Positions 1 to 19,238 of a stretch of DNA of 35,507 bases are shown one piece after another. Every line of letters starts with the position of its first letter. The stretch's first letter is position 1. The notes beneath the pieces were generated by a model that worked only from the letters and a program-made list of their open reading frames with translations, was not told where the DNA came from and searched no databases. Source of the stretch: Sulfurimonas sp. (GTDB taxonomy: Bacteria > Campylobacterota > Campylobacteria > Campylobacterales > Sulfurimonadaceae). The position numbers and the translations under genes are program-made. Location: positions 1-35,507 of the forward strand of contig VMSZ01000073.1 of NCBI GenBank assembly GCA_013791885.1, read 5' to 3'.

Positions 1-563
1 CATTAGCACTATTATTTTCAATATTAACTACTGCAAGACGGCGTGTATCTGTAGAAGCAAAGTTGATACTGTTTTCTTTAATTTCAATAAGAGCACCGTT
101 AAGTTCAAATTTTGGATTATTTGTGTCTATAGCCGGTGTAATTTTTTTAAGTGATTCAATGAGAGTATGTGAATCTATTGATATACGGGGTTTATTATCA
201 TAATTTGGAAATTCAGGAAATTCGTTGTGTGAAAATGTAGGCAATTTAAATTTTGAATGAGATTGGGAAATATTGAGAATATCACCTTTGACTTCTAAAT
301 TTATTTCTCCATCTTTTAATATTCTGACAATATCAAGAAATTTTTTACCATTAGCGGTAATTGTTCCTTCTTCAGTAATATTTACATTTTTAGTTTTAAC
401 TAAAAAACCAATTTCATAATCTGTTGCTTTTATCGTAAGTTCAGCACCTTCTGCACTCATGAAAACATGAGATGTGATTTGTGATGTATCTTTCTTTTCT
501 AGAAAAGGTCCTGCGTTTATGAGTATGTTTTCAAGAATTGATTTTGAAATCGTCATTTTCATA
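1..563 (-). CDS. dnaN: DNA polymerase III sliding clamp (beta subunit), 3' end cut off by window
   Basis: The reverse strand from 563 reads MKMTISKSILENILINAG and stays open to the window edge, about 187 codons, roughly half of a normal 355-370 residue clamp. The pattern is that of beta-clamp domain 1 and part of domain 2, including GKKFLDIVRIL and the FASTDTRRLAVV block. The clamp encircles DNA and tethers polymerase III. The ATG at 563 is preceded by AGGAAA at a good distance; a second in-frame ATG lies two codons later. It sits downstream of dnaA in the same direction, the usual dnaA-dnaN order. The C-terminal part lies outside the window. Confidence 0.95.
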
Positions 564-741
564 TGAATTTCCTATATATTTTATATAATTTTTAGTATGT
601 AGTAGTAGGGAGTGATGATTATGTGAAAATCATCATTTAAGCCCTATTCTAAGAGTTATTAGCATATCTTAAAGATGTGTAACTCATTCACATCTATTCA
701 CTTTTATGATTATATCTTTTTTTTAAATATTTTTATAATTT
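564..741. other. dnaA-dnaN intergenic region with degenerate DnaA boxes and AT-rich stretch
   Basis: This 178-bp spacer contains two weak DnaA-box-like nonamers, TCATTCACA (684-692, one mismatch to TTATTCACA) and CTATTCACT (694-702, two mismatches). They are followed by an almost pure A/T stretch (about 707-741). Two inverted repeats are visible: TGATGATT/AATCATCA around a 7-nt loop (613-635) and AGATGTG/CACATCT (673-695). Related bacteria have origin elements flanking dnaA, so this may be a minor oriC subregion with an unwinding element. It also must hold any dnaN-proximal promoter. No ORF was seen. Confidence 0.45.
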
Positions 742-2049
742 TTAATCTGAAGAAGTTATTTTATTTGTTAGTTCTTCTATTTTAACTTTAAAATCCTCAT
801 CATTTTGAATGAGTTCGGCTATTTTTTTAAGTGTATGACTAATTGCCGTATGGTCTTTCATGCCAAAATACTGGGCAAGTTGAGGCATAGTATTTTGTGT
901 GAGTTCGCGACAAAGATAGATAGAAATTCTTCTTGCGTAAACTAAATTTTTACTTCTGCTTTTTGAGCGTATTTCACTAGGTTTAATATTTAAATCTTTT
1001 GCAACATTTTGCGTAATCATATCTAGAGTTAAATTTGCTCTGTTTTCTTTGATTTGGTCTTTTAAAATATTTTTTGTAAATTCTAAATCTATATCCACGT
1101 GAATAAGCTGAGAATATGCATGAAGTTTAGATAGGATACCTTCTATTTCACGGACATTACTGTCTATTACTGTTGCAATATAATTGATAATATCTTTAGT
1201 AAGTTTAACTTTATTAATTTCACATTTTTTCTCAATAATGGCAATTTTAGTTTCAAGTTCCGGCGGCTGGATATCTGCAACAAGACCCCATTCAAAACGG
1301 CTTTGAAGTCTTGCTTCAAGACCGGCTATTTTTTTTGGATGTTTGTCTGCTGTAAGTATTATCTGTTTACCTTCACCTTTTAGAGCTTCAAAAGTGTGAA
1401 AAAATTCTTCTTGAATAGACTCTTTATTGCTTAAAAATTGAATATCGTCTATAAGCAATACATCACATTTACGGTATTTTTCTTGAAATCTTTCCATATT
1501 TTTATTTCTTAAATGTCTTACAAAATCATTTAAAAATTGTTCTACGGTTGTGTATATAACTACTTTTCCCTGATTTTGAAATACATTTCCCGCGGCTTGC
1601 ATAAGGTGCGTCTTACCAAGACCTACTCCACCGTAGATGAAAAGAGGATTATAAATCTGTCCTGCTTTTTCACTTACACTTTTTACTGCTGCATAAGCAA
1701 ACTGGTTAGATCCGCCGACCATAAAATTTTCAAAAGTATGAGAAGGATTGAGGTGTGAATGTTGTACTTTTACTTTGGATACTTCTTTAATTTTTGATTT
1801 GTCCATTCTACTCTCAAGAGCTATTTGCACATTTACACGCATATCGCTTTTTATTTCGAAAAGATGAGCAATCTTTTCTCCATATTTATTTTTAATCCAA
1901 TTTAAAACTAATGCATTGGGTGCATAATAGATAGCTAAATCACCTGTTGAGTTTTTAGCATCGTATTTCAAATGTTTAATATATCTATTATATTCAACGT
2001 CGGTAATCTCTTGTTTGAGCATTTCTAGTACTTCTTGACCTATATTCAC
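742..2049 (-). CDS. dnaA: chromosomal replication initiator protein DnaA
   Basis: A 435-residue AAA+ initiator that binds DnaA boxes and opens the origin. Domain I is residues 1 to about 75 and a short linker follows. The AAA+ domain starts near HTFENFMVGGSN (about 104), with Walker A GGVGLGKTH (140-148) and Walker B LLIDD (198-202). Domain IV carries the DnaA signature MKDHTAISHTLKKI near the C-terminus. Length is normal for the short-linker epsilonproteobacterial type. The start is GTG at 2049, with AGG about eight bases upstream; the next internal ATG is codon 10. The start region itself contains TGTGAATAT, a near DnaA box, so autoregulation is plausible. It is leftward, with dnaN downstream. 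Confidence 0.98.
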   Translation of the reverse strand: MNIGQEVLEMLKQEITDVEYNRYIKHLKYDAKNSTGDLAIYYAPNALVLNWIKNKYGEKIAHLFEIKSDMRVNVQIALESRMDKSKIKEVSKVKVQHSHLNPSHTFENFMVGGSNQFAYAAVKSVSEKAGQIYNPLFIYGGVGLGKTHLMQAAGNVFQNQGKVVIYTTVEQFLNDFVRHLRNKNMERFQEKYRKCDVLLIDDIQFLSNKESIQEEFFHTFEALKGEGKQIILTADKHPKKIAGLEARLQSRFEWGLVADIQPPELETKIAIIEKKCEINKVKLTKDIINYIATVIDSNVREIEGILSKLHAYSQLIHVDIDLEFTKNILKDQIKENRANLTLDMITQNVAKDLNIKPSEIRSKSRSKNLVYARRISIYLCRELTQNTMPQLAQYFGMKDHTAISHTLKKIAELIQNDEDFKVKIEELTNKITSSD

Positions 2050-2150
2050 AGTTATTGCCTAATGAGTTATTTATATGTGAATAATACCGTGTATAGACAT
2101 AATATATGGTTAAATAAATGTGAATAACTCTTTGTGATTTATGTGAATAA
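2042..2150. other. putative oriC: DnaA-box cluster upstream of dnaA
   Basis: Three perfect DnaA boxes TGTGAATAA (TTATTCACA on the other strand) lie at 2076-2084, 2119-2127 and 2142-2150, all in the same orientation. A fourth, one-mismatch box in the opposite orientation (2042-2050) overlaps the dnaA start codon. The spacer runs to the ruvC start at 2199 and is AT-rich. The boxes are seen directly. Calling it the origin rests on the known link between dnaA-proximal box clusters and oriC. The same boxes could also mediate dnaA autorepression. Confidence 0.75.
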
Positions 2151-7796: not shown

Positions 7797-8708
7797 TTGC
7801 CATTTATTATAAAAAAAATGAATGCTCCTGTAAAGCAGCGAGCATTCTTATATCTTATAAAAGAGTTGGGCTATACTCAAAAAGAAGCACAACGGTTAAT
7901 AGCCAAAGGAAGACTCTTAGTTGAGGGTGTTCCAATTACTAAAGCAGGAGAAGAGATAGAAGGAGATTTTGAATTTATACACTTTGAGCCTTTGACAAAA
8001 GGTTTAGTTCCTCACGCCGTTCATGAAGATTTTGTTCTCTTTGACAAACCAAGCGGTATGCTTATTCACCCTCAAAATAGAAAGACACCCTACTCTTTAA
8101 TAGATGAATTAAAGTCTCAGTTTGGAATGGATGCAAATATAGCACATAGAATAGATCAAGAGACAAGCGGGCTTGTCTTGTGTGCACGAAGCAAAAATAG
8201 CGAGAGAGACCTAAAGATGATGTTCCAAGAGCGAGATATGAAGAAAAAGTATTTGGCTTTGGTTCATGGAGAATTTAAAGAAGAGTTAACTGTGGAAGCC
8301 AGACTCTTAAGAGCACAAGATGAAAGTGCAATTGTGCGAATGGTTGTAAAAGTGGATGAACGCGGAAAAGAATCTAAAACACATTTCAGACCTTTAAAAT
8401 ATTTTCCGGAACTAAATATGACACTTCTCGAATGTTTACCTCATACTGGAAGACAACATCAAATACGTGTTCATTTGTTTCACGTGAAACATCCAATAGT
8501 CGGTGATCCAATTTACGGACAAAGGGAAGAAGATATAGTTCTGTTTCTTGACAAAGAATTAAGTGATGAGTTTAGAATCGATAAATCTGGAGCCAGCAGA
8601 TTACTTCTTCATGCGAACGAATTGGAATTTGAACTTTACGGAAATATTTACAATTTCAAAAGTAATGTAGATTTTGAAAAAGTTTGTTTTGAAGCTTTAA
8701 ATTCTTAA
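7797..8708 (+). CDS. RluA-family 23S rRNA pseudouridine synthase (S4 domain protein)
   Basis: A 303-residue enzyme that isomerises uridine to pseudouridine, probably in 23S rRNA. An N-terminal S4-type RNA-binding domain (about 10-65) is followed by the catalytic domain, with HRIDQETSGLVL holding the catalytic aspartate and the late motif GRQHQIRVHLF. The start is TTG at 7797: AAAGGA (7784-7789) is correctly spaced for it, while the ATG seven codons later has none. The codons for LFHVKH after the RxHQIRVH motif are exactly a perfect parS sequence, so this gene hosts a partition site. The exact target uridine cannot be told, so no symbol is given. Confidence 0.93.
   Translation: MPFIIKKMNAPVKQRAFLYLIKELGYTQKEAQRLIAKGRLLVEGVPITKAGEEIEGDFEFIHFEPLTKGLVPHAVHEDFVLFDKPSGMLIHPQNRKTPYSLIDELKSQFGMDANIAHRIDQETSGLVLCARSKNSERDLKMMFQERDMKKKYLALVHGEFKEELTVEARLLRAQDESAIVRMVVKVDERGKESKTHFRPLKYFPELNMTLLECLPHTGRQHQIRVHLFHVKHPIVGDPIYGQREEDIVLFLDKELSDEFRIDKSGASRLLLHANELEFELYGNIYNFKSNVDFEKVCFEALNS
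8476..8491. other. parS: perfect parS site (ParB-binding) inside the pseudouridine synthase gene
   Basis: The 16-bp palindrome TGTTTCACGTGAAACA is identical to the classical chromosomal parS consensus, the centromere-like site bound by ParB/Spo0J. It lies about 6.4 kb from dnaA, the origin-proximal location expected for parS. It is read in frame as part of codons for L-F-H-V-K-H. No parA/parB gene is in the window, so they must be elsewhere. Confidence 0.85.
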
Positions 8709-8723
8709 GAAAGAGAAAGTTTA

Positions 8724-8763
8724 TTTCAGACAGAATGTTTCATGTGAAACATTCTGTCTGAAA
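8724..8763. repeat. parS: 40-bp palindrome with an embedded parS-like core
   Basis: Two perfect 19-bp arms flank a central TG. The core 8736-8751, TGTTTCATGTGAAACA, matches parS at 15 of 16 positions, with one change in the central CACGTG. It lies 260 bp from the perfect parS and 15 bases after the synthase stop. There is no T-run on the + side, so a simple intrinsic terminator is a poor explanation, although the stem could still end transcription. A second ParB site reinforced by flanking symmetry is the better reading. Confidence 0.7.
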
Positions 8764-8830
8764 ACGCCAATAATTTTATTTGCAATATTTTAAGAAGTTT
8801 AGTGGGCTACCAGCCAATAATTCTTTTAGA

Positions 8831-8878
8831 TGTGAATAACTTTATCAACTATCAATTTTTCATTTATGATGTGAATAA
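8831..8878. other. second DnaA-box cluster, two perfect boxes
   Basis: TGTGAATAA occurs at 8831-8839 and 8870-8878, both in the same orientation as the boxes upstream of dnaA. They sit between two 40-bp palindromes in a gene-free stretch. They could be a distal origin element, a DnaA-titrating or replication-control site, or a link between ParB and DnaA. Confidence 0.65.
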
Positions 8879-8890
8879 GATTCGTTTATA

Positions 8891-8930
8891 ATATTGCTTA
8901 AACCCCTAAATATAGGGATTTAAGCAATAT
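8891..8930. repeat. second 40-bp palindrome
   Basis: Two 18-bp arms with one mismatch (8891-8908 and 8913-8930) flank AATA. The mismatch is C-A on the + transcript but a G-U wobble on the - transcript, so an RNA made leftward would fold completely. No T-run follows on either strand. It begins 12 bases after the second DnaA box. It does not contain parS or a DnaA box. Function unknown. Confidence 0.65.
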
Positions 8931-8979
8931 AAAAGGATTTCATTTCAGCTTTATTTTATATAAAAAAATTCTTAAAAAA

Positions 8980-9049
8980 AGAGAGAATTTTAAAATTCAC
9001 TCTACTTAGTGTGTGATAATATTCACACTTTAGAACAATGTGTGAATAC
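8980..9049. other. AT-rich segment with near-palindrome and degenerate DnaA boxes
   Basis: GAATTTTAAAATTC (8985-8998) is a perfect palindrome, extended by AGAG/CTCT outside a mismatch. It is followed by ATATTCACA (9019-9027) and TGTGAATAC (9041-9049), each one mismatch from a DnaA box and in opposite orientations. The rest of 9050-9160 is AT-rich with only a short palindrome GTAATATTAC (9150-9159). No ORF of note was found in 8764-9164. Confidence 0.4.
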
Positions 9050-9164
9050 TTCCCACTTTGAGTAAATTTAAGAAAAAATTAGAAAGTTATATTTTATTTA
9101 AGTTTAGCGGGTGAAGATTTTGAGATTATTTTTTTATAAGGAAAGTAAGGTAATATTACATTCA

Positions 9165-9202
9165 TAGACGGTCTCCCTGGTGTGTTGACCGCCTACTTTT
9201 TT
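9165..9202 (+). terminator. hairpin plus T-run with no upstream gene, possible sRNA end
   Basis: TAGACGGTC (9165-9173) and GACCGCCTA (9187-9195) pair over 9 positions around a 13-nt loop, and CTTTTTT follows, the layout of a rightward intrinsic terminator. On the + RNA one pair is A-C; on the - RNA it is G-U, so the leftward RNA folds better but lacks the T-run. The last rightward gene ends 456 bases earlier, so a small RNA or a long 3' UTR might end here. Confidence 0.4.
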
Positions 9203-9218
9203 AATGCTCTCTTTAGGA

Positions 9219-9314
9219 TTAATCCTTTTTTGTGGCGGCAATTATAAAGCCAGCAACTCCAACAATAAACACAGCGACTAAAAATACTAATTGAAATATT
9301 TCCGTAAAATCCAT
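9219..9314 (-). CDS. 31-residue single-pass membrane peptide coupled to rlmN
   Basis: The ATG at 9314-9312 shares a base with the rlmN stop (TAATG). The frame begins [11 protein letters not shown], runs through one hydrophobic helix of about 21 residues (about 7-27, including FIVGVAGFIIAA) and ends with ATKKD. A ribosome site AAGGGGA lies inside the end of rlmN at ideal spacing. A negative N-terminus, a hydrophobic core and lysines at the end suggest a membrane microprotein. It is the last frame of the hisF-PNP-rlmN operon. Function is unknown. Confidence 0.7.
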   Translation of the reverse strand: MDFTEIFQLVFLVAVFIVGVAGFIIAATKKD

Positions 9315-10390
9315 TAAAGTTCCCCTTCTGTTTTTTCTTTTAATTGGCCACATGCGGCACTTATGTCTATGCCTTTGGAATCACGTATCGTGCAGAGCAG
9401 ACCATGATTGGTTAAATATTCTTGAAACGCAATCATATCAGCTCTGCTAGGTCTCTCATAAGTAGTTCCAGGATATGGATTGAAGAAGATAAGATTTACC
9501 TTTGCTTTTATACCGCTAAGCAGTTTGACGAGCTTTTTAGCAGAGGCTAGATCATCATTTTTATTTTTAATGACCAGATACTCAAACATAACTCTTTTTC
9601 TTGTATCTATTGGGAAGCGTTTGACAGCTTCTATAATAGAGTTTATGTTGTGAGCCTTATTCATAGGAATAAGCTCTGTACGAAGCTCATCATCAACAGC
9701 ATGTAAAGAAATAGCTATATGCACGCCTAAATCCATCTCGCCAAGTTTATCTATCTTAGAGCTAAGACCACTTGTAGAGACGGTCTGGCGTTTACCAGAG
9801 ATTGCCAAGCCGTCTTCTTCTTGAAAAATTTCTATTGCTTTTGCGAGATTTGTAAGATTATCGAGTGGTTCGCCCATTCCCATATAAACGATGTTGATTT
9901 TTCGGTTATGTTTGTGGTCGTTGTCGCGTTTGAGATTTACTACTTGTGCAACAATTTCTCCGGCAGTTAAATCTCTTGTAAATCCACCTTTGGCTGTGAG
10001 ACAAAAAGAACACCCTACTTTACATCCAACTTGTGTCGAAACGCAGATAGTGTATTTTGCTTCTTGAATAAGTTCATCATTCTCGTCACGCTGTTCATCT
10101 TTCATCTTCAGCCAAACTGCTTCAACAGTTTTTCCGTCTTGAAGTTCAAAAAGGTATTTGATTGTGCCATCGCTTGAAATTTCTTTACGGATAATCTTCA
10201 TAGGGTTAACAATAAACTTTTGAGCAAGTTCTTCTTTAAGCGCTTTTGGAATATTTTTCATCTCATCAAAATCTTGGGCGTATTGGTGGTAAAGCCAGCC
10301 AAAAATCTGCTTGACTCTAAAAGAGGGTTTTATTTGCTCCATAAGCTCTTTTTGAGTAAAGTCAAGAAGTGATGGTTTTAATATGCTCAT
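9314..10390 (-). CDS. rlmN: dual-specificity rRNA/tRNA adenine-C2 methyltransferase RlmN (radical SAM)
   Basis: A 358-residue radical-SAM enzyme that methylates C2 of A2503 in 23S rRNA and of A37 in some tRNAs. The iron-sulfur cluster cysteines are C123, C127 and C130 (GCKVGCSFC). The GEPLDN motif follows. The resolving cysteine is C347 in AACGQL near the C-terminus, and C116 is also in the expected block ICVSTQVGC. Length is normal. It starts two bases after the PNP-family gene and ends overlapping the small membrane peptide, so all are probably co-translated. Confidence 0.96.
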
Positions 10391-15793: not shown

Positions 15794-17098
15794 ATGCCTT
15801 TCAAATCACTCAAAGAAAAACTCTCCTCCAAAGATTATTCTGTAGCCTTTGGCGAGGTTGTGAAGATAAACGCAACCATTGTCACGGCAACGGGCCTCAA
15901 AGTAAGCATCAGCGACATGGTAAAAATTGTCTCAAACACAACTTCTCAAGAGACGATAGGCATGGTTACCGAGATAGACGGGGCGACTTTTTTTATAACC
16001 CCTTTTAGTTTTGTCGAGGGTTTTTGTTCAGGGGATAGAGTATTTTTGGATTCTACAGGTTTGAATATTCCCGTTGGTGAGTCTCTTCTTGGACGTGTAG
16101 TAAATCCTTTTATGCATCCGATTGACGGTAAAGGAAACATCAATAACTCCAAACTATCTCCAATCATTAAAATGCCGATTGCTCCAATGAAACGCGGTAT
16201 GATTAATGATGTTTTCAGTGTAGGCGTAAAAAGTATAGATGGACTTTTGACTTGCGGAAAAGGTCAAAAACTTGGGATTTTTGCAGGAAGCGGTGTTGGA
16301 AAATCAACACTCATGGGAATGATTGTCCGTGGAGCAGATGCACCCATAAAAGTCGTGGCCCTTATTGGTGAGCGTGGTCGTGAGGTTCCTGAGTTTATAG
16401 AAAAAAATCTCGGCGGCAATCTTGAAAATACTGTCATAATCGTAGCAACGAGTGACGACTCGCCTTTGATGCGTAAATATGGTGCTTTCGCTGCAATGAG
16501 TGTTGCGGAGTATTTTAAAGACCAAGGACTAGATGTTCTTTTTATTATGGACTCAGTGACGCGTTTTGCTATGGCGCAGCGTGAAATTGGTCTTGCCCTC
16601 GGCGAACCGCCAACTTCAAAAGGGTATCCGCCTTCTTCTTTAACGCTTCTTCCACAACTCATGGAGCGAGCGGGAAAAGAAGATGGAAAAGGTTCTATTA
16701 CTGCGTTTTTTACGGTTCTCATAGAAGGCGACGACATGAGTGACCCTATTGCAGACCAATCACGTTCCATTTTAGATGGACACATTGTTTTATCACGTGA
16801 GCTGACAGATTTTGGCATATACCCGCCTATTCATGTCCTAAACTCTGCTTCAAGAGTTATGAATGACATCATTAGTGATGAACATCTGAAATCTGTAATG
16901 ATGTTTAGACGCTATCACACACTTCTCAAAGAAAATGAAGTACTCATTCGAATAGGAGCTTATACAAAAGGAAGTGACCCTGAGCTTGACAAAGCAATAG
17001 CAAAAAAAGAAGATATGGAGGCATTTTTAACGCAAAAATCAACACTTCAAATTGCTTTTGAAGATAGTGTGAATACTCTTATAGAGATTATGAAGTAA
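15794..17098 (+). CDS. fliI: flagellar export ATPase FliI
   Basis: A 434-residue F1-beta-like ATPase of the flagellar type III export apparatus, working with FliH and FliJ at the cytoplasmic side of the basal body. Walker A GSGVGKST is at 165-172, and Walker B is in VLFIMDSVTRFA near 250-260, whose DSVTRFAMAQRE context is typical of FliI/SctN. ERGREVPEF is also diagnostic. I prefer FliI to a virulence-type homologue because no type III secretion genes are nearby. It is unusual in being apart from other flagellar genes, after folE. Confidence 0.93.
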   Translation: MPFKSLKEKLSSKDYSVAFGEVVKINATIVTATGLKVSISDMVKIVSNTTSQETIGMVTEIDGATFFITPFSFVEGFCSGDRVFLDSTGLNIPVGESLLGRVVNPFMHPIDGKGNINNSKLSPIIKMPIAPMKRGMINDVFSVGVKSIDGLLTCGKGQKLGIFAGSGVGKSTLMGMIVRGADAPIKVVALIGERGREVPEFIEKNLGGNLENTVIIVATSDDSPLMRKYGAFAAMSVAEYFKDQGLDVLFIMDSVTRFAMAQREIGLALGEPPTSKGYPPSSLTLLPQLMERAGKEDGKGSITAFFTVLIEGDDMSDPIADQSRSILDGHIVLSRELTDFGIYPPIHVLNSASRVMNDIISDEHLKSVMMFRRYHTLLKENEVLIRIGAYTKGSDPELDKAIAKKEDMEAFLTQKSTLQIAFEDSVNTLIEIMK

Positions 17099-17118
17099 AG
17101 CTACTCTATAGCTTTTTT
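17098..17118 (+). terminator. intrinsic terminator after fliI
   Basis: AAGCTA (17098-17103) and TAGCTT (17109-17114) form a short stem with a 5-nt loop, followed by TTTT. It starts at the last base of the fliI stop codon and overlaps the 3' end of the converging propeller gene. The stem is AT-rich, so strength is uncertain. Confidence 0.45.
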
Positions 17119-19238
17119 GAGTACTCCATAATGATATTTGATTTTATCCACTCATCTCGCGGAGTTCTGACTCCATCATCAAGTGTAATAGCAAGTTTTT
17201 TTCCACAAAGATTCTCATAATTTTTCATAAGCAATCTCATCTCATTATCGTTTCCAAAGATATCAATGTAGGAGTAGATAATATTTTGGGCGCCTTGATA
17301 GTTTTCATCAGCTAAAAAAGTTTTGATTTTTGACTGAAAACTTACACGAAGAAGGTCTCCAATTTTATCTGTCCTGGTACTTATGCTTATGAGGTTGTTC
17401 AATGTGATTTTTATGCTTTTTGCGTCACCGCTCAGAGCGTATTCTTCACACTCATTTACAAGTGCTGCCCAGCGTTTATTCAAGCTAATTCCTAGCTCTG
17501 TTGCGTTTAGGCCTACATTTGCGTCTAGAATCTCGTAACAGCCTTTAAAATTGTTTGCTTTGTAAGCGTTTTGCAACTTAATCATGGCATTGAAATTTGT
17601 AATGAGCCGCTCAAGTTCATCTCGCATAAAAGTAGTGTTTTTGAAAAGCTTGAGATGATTTTTTGCTTTTTGCAGTTCCCCTTGCTTAATAAAGAGATCT
17701 ATTTTTTTTATATTTTTTTCTATACTTTGATTGAGACTTATATATGTTGGTGTTTCTAAAAAAAGTTTATTTTTATATATGAGTTCATCAACAGTTTGAA
17801 AATCATTAGCATCAACTGCATGTAAAAATGTCATGAAATCACTTTCTTGAGTCAAGAGCAGTTTGATAATTTCACGCTTGGATGCAACTGTGAGATATTC
17901 ATGGAGGAGAGCTTTCGCATTTTGAGAATCTCCTAATGAGATGTGTCTGTAGGCATTTTTAAAGCTGTCTCTCCAGGCTTCTTCTATTTTCTCATAGAGC
18001 GGTGTTTGCATAAGTGGTTCGTATTTTGAACACATTGCAAAACAAAGAGCATATTTTTTTTCAAAATAATGTATTTTAAATCTATTGAAATTCTCAAAAG
18101 CGCGAAATAAAGAGTTTATTTCATTCTCTTTTGATTTTATACCCTTGAGCGGAGCTATACATTTAAGAGCGTATGCTTTATTTTGGTTCATTAAAGCATG
18201 GAGGGCTTCTTTATAGATATCTTTATATCTCTTTTGAAGGAGTTTATACTCTATGGTATTATGAAGAATAGGTGCCCTCTCAACAAGCCTATAAGCTTCA
18301 TAGAGAGCGTTTTGCATCACTAATTCCTTGAGCTGAGCTCTGTTTGGAAGTTTCGCATTGAGTATTTGCGAATCTTCAAGCGCAACAAAAAGAGATTCAT
18401 CGTGTAAAAGAGCAATTTTACTGATTGTTTTTTCAAATTCTATGTATTTTGCATCTGCAACTTTTGCTTTTTTAATATCTAAAAGGGCAAGATAGTTGGT
18501 CTCGGCACTTATAATCACATAGTCACTGTTTGGCGTTTTAACAATGTCCCGTATATTTTTAAAAGGGGCATCTATACGTTTTGACTCTTTATTATGTGCA
18601 AGCGAATGTACTAAAACATCTCCATCAACATTAGCACTTACAAGCGTCTTTTCATCAATAAAACATAGAGCGTTTATTCTGCTTCCTTGTTCAATTAAAA
18701 TATGTTTTCGAATTTTTGAGTGTAAGTCAATGACAAACAATGCACCTCCTAGGCCGGAACAAGCAAGCTTCTCATTGTGTATGGACAAAGCGCTTACAAA
18801 ATTCGTTTTGGTTCTCTTTGTTTTGAGAGGGAAAGAACAAATGCGAGAGAGCAAGGAAGCATTATTATATCTGTACTGATACACTCTTCCACAGTCTGTT
18901 CCGGCAATGAGATATGTTGACGCGGGACAAAATGTAAGGATTTCGATTTTTTCATTTGGAATTGTTATGTTCTTTATGAGACTTTTAGTCGCCAAGTCGA
19001 CTATATAAATAATACTGTTATTTGCAAACGCAATCAATTTTGCATCTTGGCTAAAACAAATGGCCGTAGTCTCCCGGCCGAGCTCGCTATGAACTAACTT
19101 TAGTGTGGTAGTATGGTCGTTTATATCTATTATTTTTGCACCGCTGTATTTTGTTACGTATGCCAAAGAGTTTGTATTTAAGCGACTAAAGCTTATGATT
19201 TGTGAACGCTCTTTCGCGTGGTGATATATTTTGGGCAT
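17106..19238 (-). CDS. WD40-like beta-propeller protein with C-terminal alpha-solenoid
   Basis: A 710-residue protein with no signal peptide or membrane segment. Residues 1 to about 310 are beta repeats of the WD40/quinoprotein type: short blocks such as AICFSQDAKLIAFANNS, ALSIHNEKLACSGLGG and ALCFIDEKTLVSANVDG recur about every 40 residues. From about 310 to 690 the sequence is almost all helical pairs (AYRLVERAPILHNTIEYKLL, AKNHLKLFKN), like TPR or HEAT-type solenoids. The order propeller then solenoid is that of eukaryotic coat and nuclear-pore scaffold proteins. Function is not known to me. It converges on fliI with seven bases between the ends. Confidence 0.75.
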   Translation of the reverse strand: MPKIYHHAKERSQIISFSRLNTNSLAYVTKYSGAKIIDINDHTTTLKLVHSELGRETTAICFSQDAKLIAFANNSIIYIVDLATKSLIKNITIPNEKIEILTFCPASTYLIAGTDCGRVYQYRYNNASLLSRICSFPLKTKRTKTNFVSALSIHNEKLACSGLGGALFVIDLHSKIRKHILIEQGSRINALCFIDEKTLVSANVDGDVLVHSLAHNKESKRIDAPFKNIRDIVKTPNSDYVIISAETNYLALLDIKKAKVADAKYIEFEKTISKIALLHDESLFVALEDSQILNAKLPNRAQLKELVMQNALYEAYRLVERAPILHNTIEYKLLQKRYKDIYKEALHALMNQNKAYALKCIAPLKGIKSKENEINSLFRAFENFNRFKIHYFEKKYALCFAMCSKYEPLMQTPLYEKIEEAWRDSFKNAYRHISLGDSQNAKALLHEYLTVASKREIIKLLLTQESDFMTFLHAVDANDFQTVDELIYKNKLFLETPTYISLNQSIEKNIKKIDLFIKQGELQKAKNHLKLFKNTTFMRDELERLITNFNAMIKLQNAYKANNFKGCYEILDANVGLNATELGISLNKRWAALVNECEEYALSGDAKSIKITLNNLISISTRTDKIGDLLRVSFQSKIKTFLADENYQGAQNIIYSYIDIFGNDNEMRLLMKNYENLCGKKLAITLDDGVRTPRDEWIKSNIIMEYSKKL

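Follow-up and report, generated by a model that had tools for sequence, protein, structure and literature searches.

Detailed knowledge of how replication initiation is coupled to segregation is confined to a handful of model bacteria. In Caulobacter crescentus, parS lies 8 kb from the origin, and DnaA is reported to bind the parS region and to be able to start segregation without replication (PMC6399470, PMC4468827, PMC6667618). On chromosome II of Vibrio cholerae, ParB2 is reported to spread from parS over an inhibitory site that binds the initiator (PMC3688505). In the epsilonproteobacteria, the described bipartite oriC consists of oriC1 and oriC2, which flank dnaA and bear an unwinding site and a DnaA-trio (PMC5043019), and DMS footprinting in Campylobacter jejuni has revealed DnaA sites near but outside oriC (PMC6052347). 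In Escherichia coli, DARS1 and DARS2, at 0.81 and 2.97 Mb (PMC5742627), are described as intergenic head-to-head DnaA boxes with fixed spacing (PMC5742627, PMC8682772).

Here we describe a candidate DnaA-binding element in a 35,507-nucleotide stretch of Sulfurimonas sp. DNA (the window; contig VMSZ01000073.1, which is contig 58 of the 75 that make up the 2.52-Mb assembly GCA_013791885.1). The element lies at 9019..9049, in the 605-bp gap (8709-9313) between the convergent genes rluA (7797-8708, plus strand) and rlmN (9314-10390, minus strand). These genes, dnaA (742-2049, minus strand) and, elsewhere in the window, ruvC, nrdA, purB, hisF, ksgA, RNase J, folE, and fliI were identified by NCBIfam matches. 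Judged by RlmN, most of the closest named relatives belong to Sulfurimonas. As reported for Caulobacter, DnaA boxes lie within an origin-near parS region (8 kb from the origin there, 7-16 kb here), but the phylum is a different one, and the predicted Sulfurimonas sites form an inverted pair with a fixed 22-bp spacing and a conserved centre, placed beside or between separate parS sites. The Vibrio rctA/parS2-B region likewise has an initiator site adjoining parS near the origin and within reach of ParB spreading; there, however, the initiator is RctB, the chromosome is a secondary one, and inhibition and its relief by ParB2 were measured (PMC3688505), so that the Sulfurimonas element matches an rctA-type site in position only. 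With the bipartite oriC the element shares the TTCAC-core consensus and the chromosome region (PMC5043019), but instead of flanking dnaA it lies 7-16 kb off (7.0 kb from the dnaA start in the window), and no trio was found at it. The C. jejuni sites are also near but outside oriC, and in the same phylum, but they are reported as scattered close to dnaA (ruvC, flgE, dnaA, IGR1, IGR2, and IGR4), and the main text of that report makes no mention of parS (PMC6052347). Since those sites were already reported, we dropped the claim that this is the first DnaA site outside oriC in Campylobacterota (PMC6052347). Our literature searches, not all of which were aimed at this point, returned no published report of a DnaA site built into the parS region in this phylum. 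The Sulfurimonas arrangement resembles the Caulobacter, Vibrio, and C. jejuni systems in layout rather than in proven mechanism.

A conserved pair of DnaA boxes in the rluA–rlmN gap

The core element is TATTCACA-N13-TGTGAATA with a conserved centre. In the window it consists of two head-to-head DnaA boxes with one mismatch each, at 9019 (ATATTCACA, forward) and 9041 (TGTGAATAC, reverse), whose starts are 22 bp apart and which enclose the centre TTAGAACA. On its rluA side lie a perfect 19+2+19 palindrome (8724-8763) around a parS site, a perfect DnaA box on the minus strand (box A, 8831..8839, TTATTCACA) 188 bp upstream of the pair, a second perfect box on the same strand (8870..8878) 39 bp from box A, a 40-bp inverted repeat with arms 94% complementary (8891..8930), the AT-rich blocks TTTATATAA, TTCTTAA, and AATTTT-AAATT (8954..8998), and an AT-rich inverted repeat (8980-9003). 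An earlier, sequence-only reading of this locus had listed the parS palindrome, the DnaA boxes, the second 40-bp palindrome, and the AT-rich near-palindrome, and each was confirmed in place.

Perfect TGTGAATAA boxes number 38 in the 2,523,358 bp of the whole assembly; 0.009 are expected in the 605-bp gap and two were found (P = 4e-5 for at least two, before any correction for choice of place). In the assembly-wide list of perfect boxes, only this gap and the ruvC–dnaA gap hold two such boxes at most 100 bp apart on one contig. We conclude that the clustering of boxes in the rluA–rlmN gap is real and beyond chance. The sequence TGTGAATAA is suitable as a box because the Sulfurimonas denitrificans DnaA consensus obtained by DMS footprinting is reported as HHATTCACA, with a TTCAC core shared across the class (PMC5043019). 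The window boxes at 8831, 8870, and 9019 fit this consensus, and that at 9041 departs from it at the first position, which is among its three degenerate positions. Across 28 genus loci (the window and L031-L057), the density of HHATTCACA was 3.28/kb in rluA–rlmN gaps (64 in 19,535 bp), 3.94/kb in dnaA–ruvC gaps (oriC1; 16 in 4,057 bp), 2.65/kb in dnaA–dnaN gaps (oriC2; 3 in 1,133 bp), and 0.16/kb elsewhere (79 in 502,946 bp).

We searched 100 genomes of the genus for the pattern TATTCACA-NN-TTAGAACA-N-TG-TGTGAATA, allowing up to three mismatches. It was present in 88 of them (55 of the 61 of good quality), as a single copy in each, while the reversed pattern, used as a control, had no match in the same 100 genomes. 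Twelve genomes had no element at up to three mismatches; five of these are less than 80% complete and one is 84% complete. Seven of the twelve were inspected: in G064 the gap is sequenced and retains the TGTGAATAA and TGTGAATAC boxes with the left box lost, in G066 and G075 the stretch contains neither rluA nor the pair, the contigs of G018 and G024 end inside rlmN, and in G006 and G076 rlmN was unmatched. A further set of 80 named loci (L092-L171) overlaps the genome set in species, and the two counts are not additive; three of its loci were too short and were dropped before counting. At up to four mismatches the core element was found in 71 of the 77 scorable loci, the exceptions being L120 (five mismatches) and five loci whose stretch has no rluA. 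The geometry is fixed: in the named loci, TTCACA..TGTGAA occurred 66 times with starts 19 bp apart and 13 times at all other spacings from 6 to 60 combined. An upstream TGTGAATA box lies 150-230 bp from the pair in 56 of the 71 loci; for the other 15, the scan covered only the stretch from rluA to the pair and would miss a box overlapping the rluA end. A third forward box after the pair is a weak possibility, its majority sequence being TACACA, with no TTCAC core in most of the 71 loci.

In an order-wide sample, the core element was present in 23 of 298 genomes, all from the family of the window; within that family it occurred in 18 of 18 genomes of the genus itself and in 5 of 11 from other genera (g23, g25, and g27). 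The pair also occurs, in a more altered form, in a third g27 genome (G381), and G186 (g24) has a diverged pair with the same spacing and a TGTGAATAA box ~190 bp upstream; in four g26 genomes, no such pair was found within 1.5 kb of rlmN.

For comparison, we drew stretches around rlmN, each at most 20 kb long, from 27 of 36 relatives within the genus and from 13 genomes of other families. Gene order around rlmN is well preserved among these loci. The rluA–rlmN synteny was scorable in 23 loci of the genus and in 8 of other families, with gap lengths of 553-1808 bp and 59-1293 bp, respectively. The eight other-family gaps contain no perfect box and no one-mismatch box that retains the core. An alignment of 22 gaps was largely unalignable with conserved islands, which include, among those listed, box A (ATGTGAATAA), CCCTA..TAGGG, TTTATATAA, TTCTTAA, and AATTTT-AAATT, as well as the inverted pair together with its centre. 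At box A, TGTGAATAA is aligned in all 22 gaps; the position of the second perfect box (8870) is not conserved among relatives. When 25 loci were anchored on the pair, the islands within about 70 bp upstream fell in register, and the stretch from -75 to -15 averaged 84.6% AT. Lack of conservation of the boxes in relatives had been named in advance as one of three grounds for abandoning the sequence-only reading; the boxes are conserved. Its emphasis on the perfect boxes needs to shift, since these are real but the one-mismatch boxes of the pair are the most conserved part. Both of its 40-bp palindromes exist, but we ruled them out as conserved units by alignment: within the genus, only the centre CCCTA..TAGGG of the repeat at 8891-8930 and, in a minority, the parS core of the other are kept.

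The gap contains no open reading frame of at least 90 amino acids, in keeping with the earlier statement that the locus has no gene, but a 31-codon frame (9219-9314, minus strand) at its right end overlaps the rlmN stop. This frame aligns in relatives in the 22-gap alignment, and its predicted product is probably a small membrane protein. In relatives with long gaps (such as L036, L041, and L045), what appears from its sequence to be an extra short reading frame (~MAENKTNTDRI, read by eye) lies between the element and the 31-codon frame; no counterpart was seen in the window.

Placement beside parS and near dnaA

The window holds two 16-bp palindromes of the parS type near TGTTTCACGTGAAACA: a perfect one at 8476..8491, inside the rluA coding sequence, where it encodes LFHVKH, and one with a single mismatch (core TGTTTCATGTGAAACA) at 8736..8751, which is intergenic and forms the centre of the 40-bp palindrome. 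As is typical of a parS centromere, the sites are few and origin-proximal (6.4-6.7 kb from dnaA) and ParB is encoded, with one protein over the cut-off in this genome (173.5 bits). The site at 8736 had been picked out by the sequence-only reading; the perfect site inside rluA had been overlooked, and it is the conserved one. Inside rluA, every one of the 23 genus loci that were scored has a parS with no more than one mismatch (14 of them perfect). At up to two mismatches, the same holds for seven of the eight loci from other families (three perfect, three with one mismatch, and one with two), L062 having none there. An intergenic parS like that at 8736 is a minority addition, seen in 14 of 67 named loci. 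Among the loci listed, the rluA parS is in frame with a conserved RluA motif, (L/M)FHVKH, which reads LNHIGH in L062; from its sequence, the centromere thus appears to be written into the RluA protein. Of note, the site at 8476-8491 may constrain this pseudouridine synthase, because it is kept in most of the scored loci from other families and coincides with LFHVKH where the locus without parS reads LNHIGH.

All 51 named loci whose sequence extends far enough have a parS site at most 0.7 kb to the left and/or at most 4.5 kb to the right of the element: 42 have one on each side, 8 on the left only, and 1 on the right only. Among the 100 genus genomes, 69 have two parS, 14 have one, 10 have three, and 7 have none. 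In nine genomes with long contigs that bear dnaA (G009, G011, G031, G032, G078, G084, G085, G109, and G117), two parS lie 2.9-4.1 kb apart with the element in between. The genome of the window is a minority case: its two parS sites, the only ones when one mismatch is allowed, are both to the left of the element. About 2 kb separates the element from the parS pair in genus g27.

In all 17 genus genomes that we selected for having their element on a complete or long contig, the element and dnaA are 7.3-16.1 kb apart. Where gene order has changed, the element stays with the centromere: an inversion in G020 (L054) keeps it with rluA and parS, away from rlmN. In G133 (L213, genus g23; 15975-18007), dnaA–dnaN is on the opposite side of the element, about 5.7 kb away, and the element, three parS, and rluA remain together; this is a rearrangement that keeps origin and centromere close.

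Origin, regulatory site, or unrelated element

The sequence-only reading had suggested a second initiation element or an initiation-control element coupled to segregation. Its closeness to the centromere is borne out by parS in 51 of 51 loci; its second-initiation half is not supported. A second functional origin, or a third limb of oriC, would unwind at the AT-rich blocks beside the boxes, and both the box density, which is similar to that of oriC, and the AT content of the conserved blocks (84.6%) would suit it, as would the cumulative GC skew, which is flat from dnaA–dnaN to the element in eight genomes and whose raw minimum, proposed earlier as a check, lies beyond the element in seven of the eight (in five by 2.7-3.8 kb). 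The raw skew, however, proved uninformative or misleading: in these genomes the fitted V vertices are spread over distances of +2 to +40 kb from oriC2, two falling at the limit of the range searched, and the raw minimum is probably an effect of gene orientation, because genes switch strand there and fourfold sites show right-arm polarity. Fourfold coding sites in the eight genomes place the origin on the dnaA side: with controls of -0.02 to +0.07 (leading) and -0.20 to -0.32 (lagging), the 20 plus-strand ORFs of the dnaA–element interval gave +0.055 and its 26 minus-strand ORFs gave -0.213, which is right-arm polarity already within the interval rather than a switch at the element. This indicates that the main origin is on the dnaA side and that the interval is replicated from there. 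Extending the test to 18 genomes gave a less clean result, in which the minus-strand genes of the interval (-0.180) fall between the lagging (-0.342) and leading (+0.042) controls and differ from both (p 0.0004 each), being below the leading control in 16 genomes and nearer the lagging one in only 11; it too speaks against a second origin. Additionally, dnaA and dnaN themselves have fourfold skews of the lagging type (-0.283 and -0.328, from few sites in the eight genomes), and this right-arm-like skew suggests a polarity switch at or left of dnaN. In the window, an oriC1-like cluster of one one-mismatch and three perfect boxes lies between dnaA and ruvC (2042..2150), and the oriC2-like dnaA–dnaN gap (558..741), with a DnaA-trio TAGTAGTAG at 600-608, is the probable unwinding site. 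The trio TAGTAGTAG is present in six of six dnaA–dnaN gaps, and trio-like runs were found in none of 25 element regions, nor does a box facing an unwinding element stand beside a trio there: of the two boxes that border the AT blocks, box A points away from them, as does the pair's left box, and only the right box faces them, across the left box. In S. denitrificans, DnaA-dependent unwinding was reported to map exclusively to the dnaA–dnaN gap, that is, to oriC2 (PMC5043019). We therefore rejected a second main origin on fourfold-site polarity and the absence of the DnaA-trio; the element is probably not one, though it might be an origin of rare use, and a functional role as second origin or third limb of oriC is very unlikely.

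Two other explanations accept the element as something apart from oriC. A DnaA titration or nucleotide-exchange site of the datA/DARS kind, to which the parS neighbourhood supplies only an origin-proximal position and gene dosage, would account for fixed-spacing head-to-head boxes with a distal box, in single copy between convergent genes, but it would make the association with parS incidental although it is kept in 51 of 51 loci. The spacing also differs. In the E. coli DARS1 and DARS2 cores, box I stands opposite boxes II and III with spacings of 14 and 12 bp (box starts 813107/813121/813133 and 2969135/2969149/2969161, measured in NC_000913.3), whereas the Sulfurimonas boxes are 22 bp apart and do not have this arrangement; DARS membership is thus ruled out by box spacing. 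The DARS1 core was found in the bioD–uvrB gap; the uvrB–ybhK gap gave one two-mismatch hit only, which is not DARS1. To our knowledge E. coli has no chromosomal ParABS, and its DARS are thus not near parS. As to activity, DARS stimulates the release of ADP by DnaA, and datA is a box cluster at which DnaA-ATP is hydrolysed in an IHF-dependent way. We regard the broader titration or exchange reading as rather improbable. Still smaller is the chance we give to a site for some other dimeric protein, or a promoter or terminator of an unannotated RNA, with the resemblance to DnaA boxes incidental. The conserved TTAGAACA centre and AT blocks are compatible with it, and two promoter-like matches overlap the pair, but the boxes are similar to the oriC1 boxes of the same window, and promoter-like matches numbered 7 against 4.1 (sd 2.1) expected, with 0 terminators in the same scan. 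Terminator-like hairpins across 25 loci do not recur at any one position, apart from a minus-strand site found in the three close relatives L055-L057, and no Rfam family reached its gathering score, the best matches being far below it. In the 25 copies of the pair, positions 3-7 of one arm and their partners are invariant, and the next positions inward vary without keeping the pairing; such non-compensating variation is more in line with a protein-binding site in DNA than with an RNA hairpin. On these grounds (the Rfam result, the lack of a common terminator place, and the uncompensated inner arm positions) an RNA gene or terminator was ruled out.

A predicted control site within the centromere

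On balance we lean toward reading the element, from its sequence and setting, as a predicted DnaA-binding control site, conserved and built into the centromere. Its sequences, their conservation and spacing, the placement beside parS and dnaA, and a polarity with the main origin on the dnaA side are direct observations. In this reading DnaA would bind the head-to-head pair at 9019-9049, with assistance from box A some 190 bp upstream. The place adjoins the origin and is one onto which parS sites, flanking it on one side or on both, would load ParB. Because the site is within ParB reach and near the origin, bound DnaA could report to the segregation complex or be displaced by it. The most likely role would be to tune initiation and the start of segregation, with the initiator held or remodelled at the centromere and modulated by ParB, rather than to fire replication. 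What we infer is that DnaA binds the element, that ParB covers it, and in which direction control runs. A second protein may act at the conserved centre TTAGAACA, since this centre is not explained by DnaA alone.

Several points temper this reading of a DnaA control site. Among them are the absence of the element, at up to three mismatches, from 12 of the 100 genus genomes, its absence from four g26 genomes, its distance from the parS pair in g27, and the one-sided parS of the window's own genome. Proximity of DnaA boxes to dnaA does not by itself imply a dedicated function, because in C. jejuni DnaA is reported to bind scattered origin-near sites (PMC6052347). The main doubt on DnaA binding at the element comes from S. 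denitrificans, in which a region predicted in silico, "oriC3", was reported as unbound by DnaA (PMC5043019); this region might be the rluA–rlmN gap. In a putative S. denitrificans genome (G084), where the rluA–rlmN gap is at about 2,188.2 kb, the region has four consensus boxes near the element, one of them possibly inside the end of rluA, and no other 500-bp bin of that 20-kb stretch is as dense, which is why the gap could be oriC3. On the other hand, DnaA should bind a fragment that carries boxes of this kind, which argues that oriC3 is another place.

A more specific version, tentative and in our view doubtful, is that ParB loading on the new centromere frees or blocks DnaA at the element and so times re-initiation and the start of segregation. 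The element beside or between parS sites would then be the meeting place of DnaA and sliding ParB, a centromere switch throughout the family. In any case, a single-copy 29-bp element of fixed geometry beside parS, in the genus and some related genera, offers a small mutable target for the study of initiator–centromere coupling. The centromere switch, if true, would give Campylobacterota a DnaA-regulatory site of a new class, located on the main chromosome and having a box geometry of its own.
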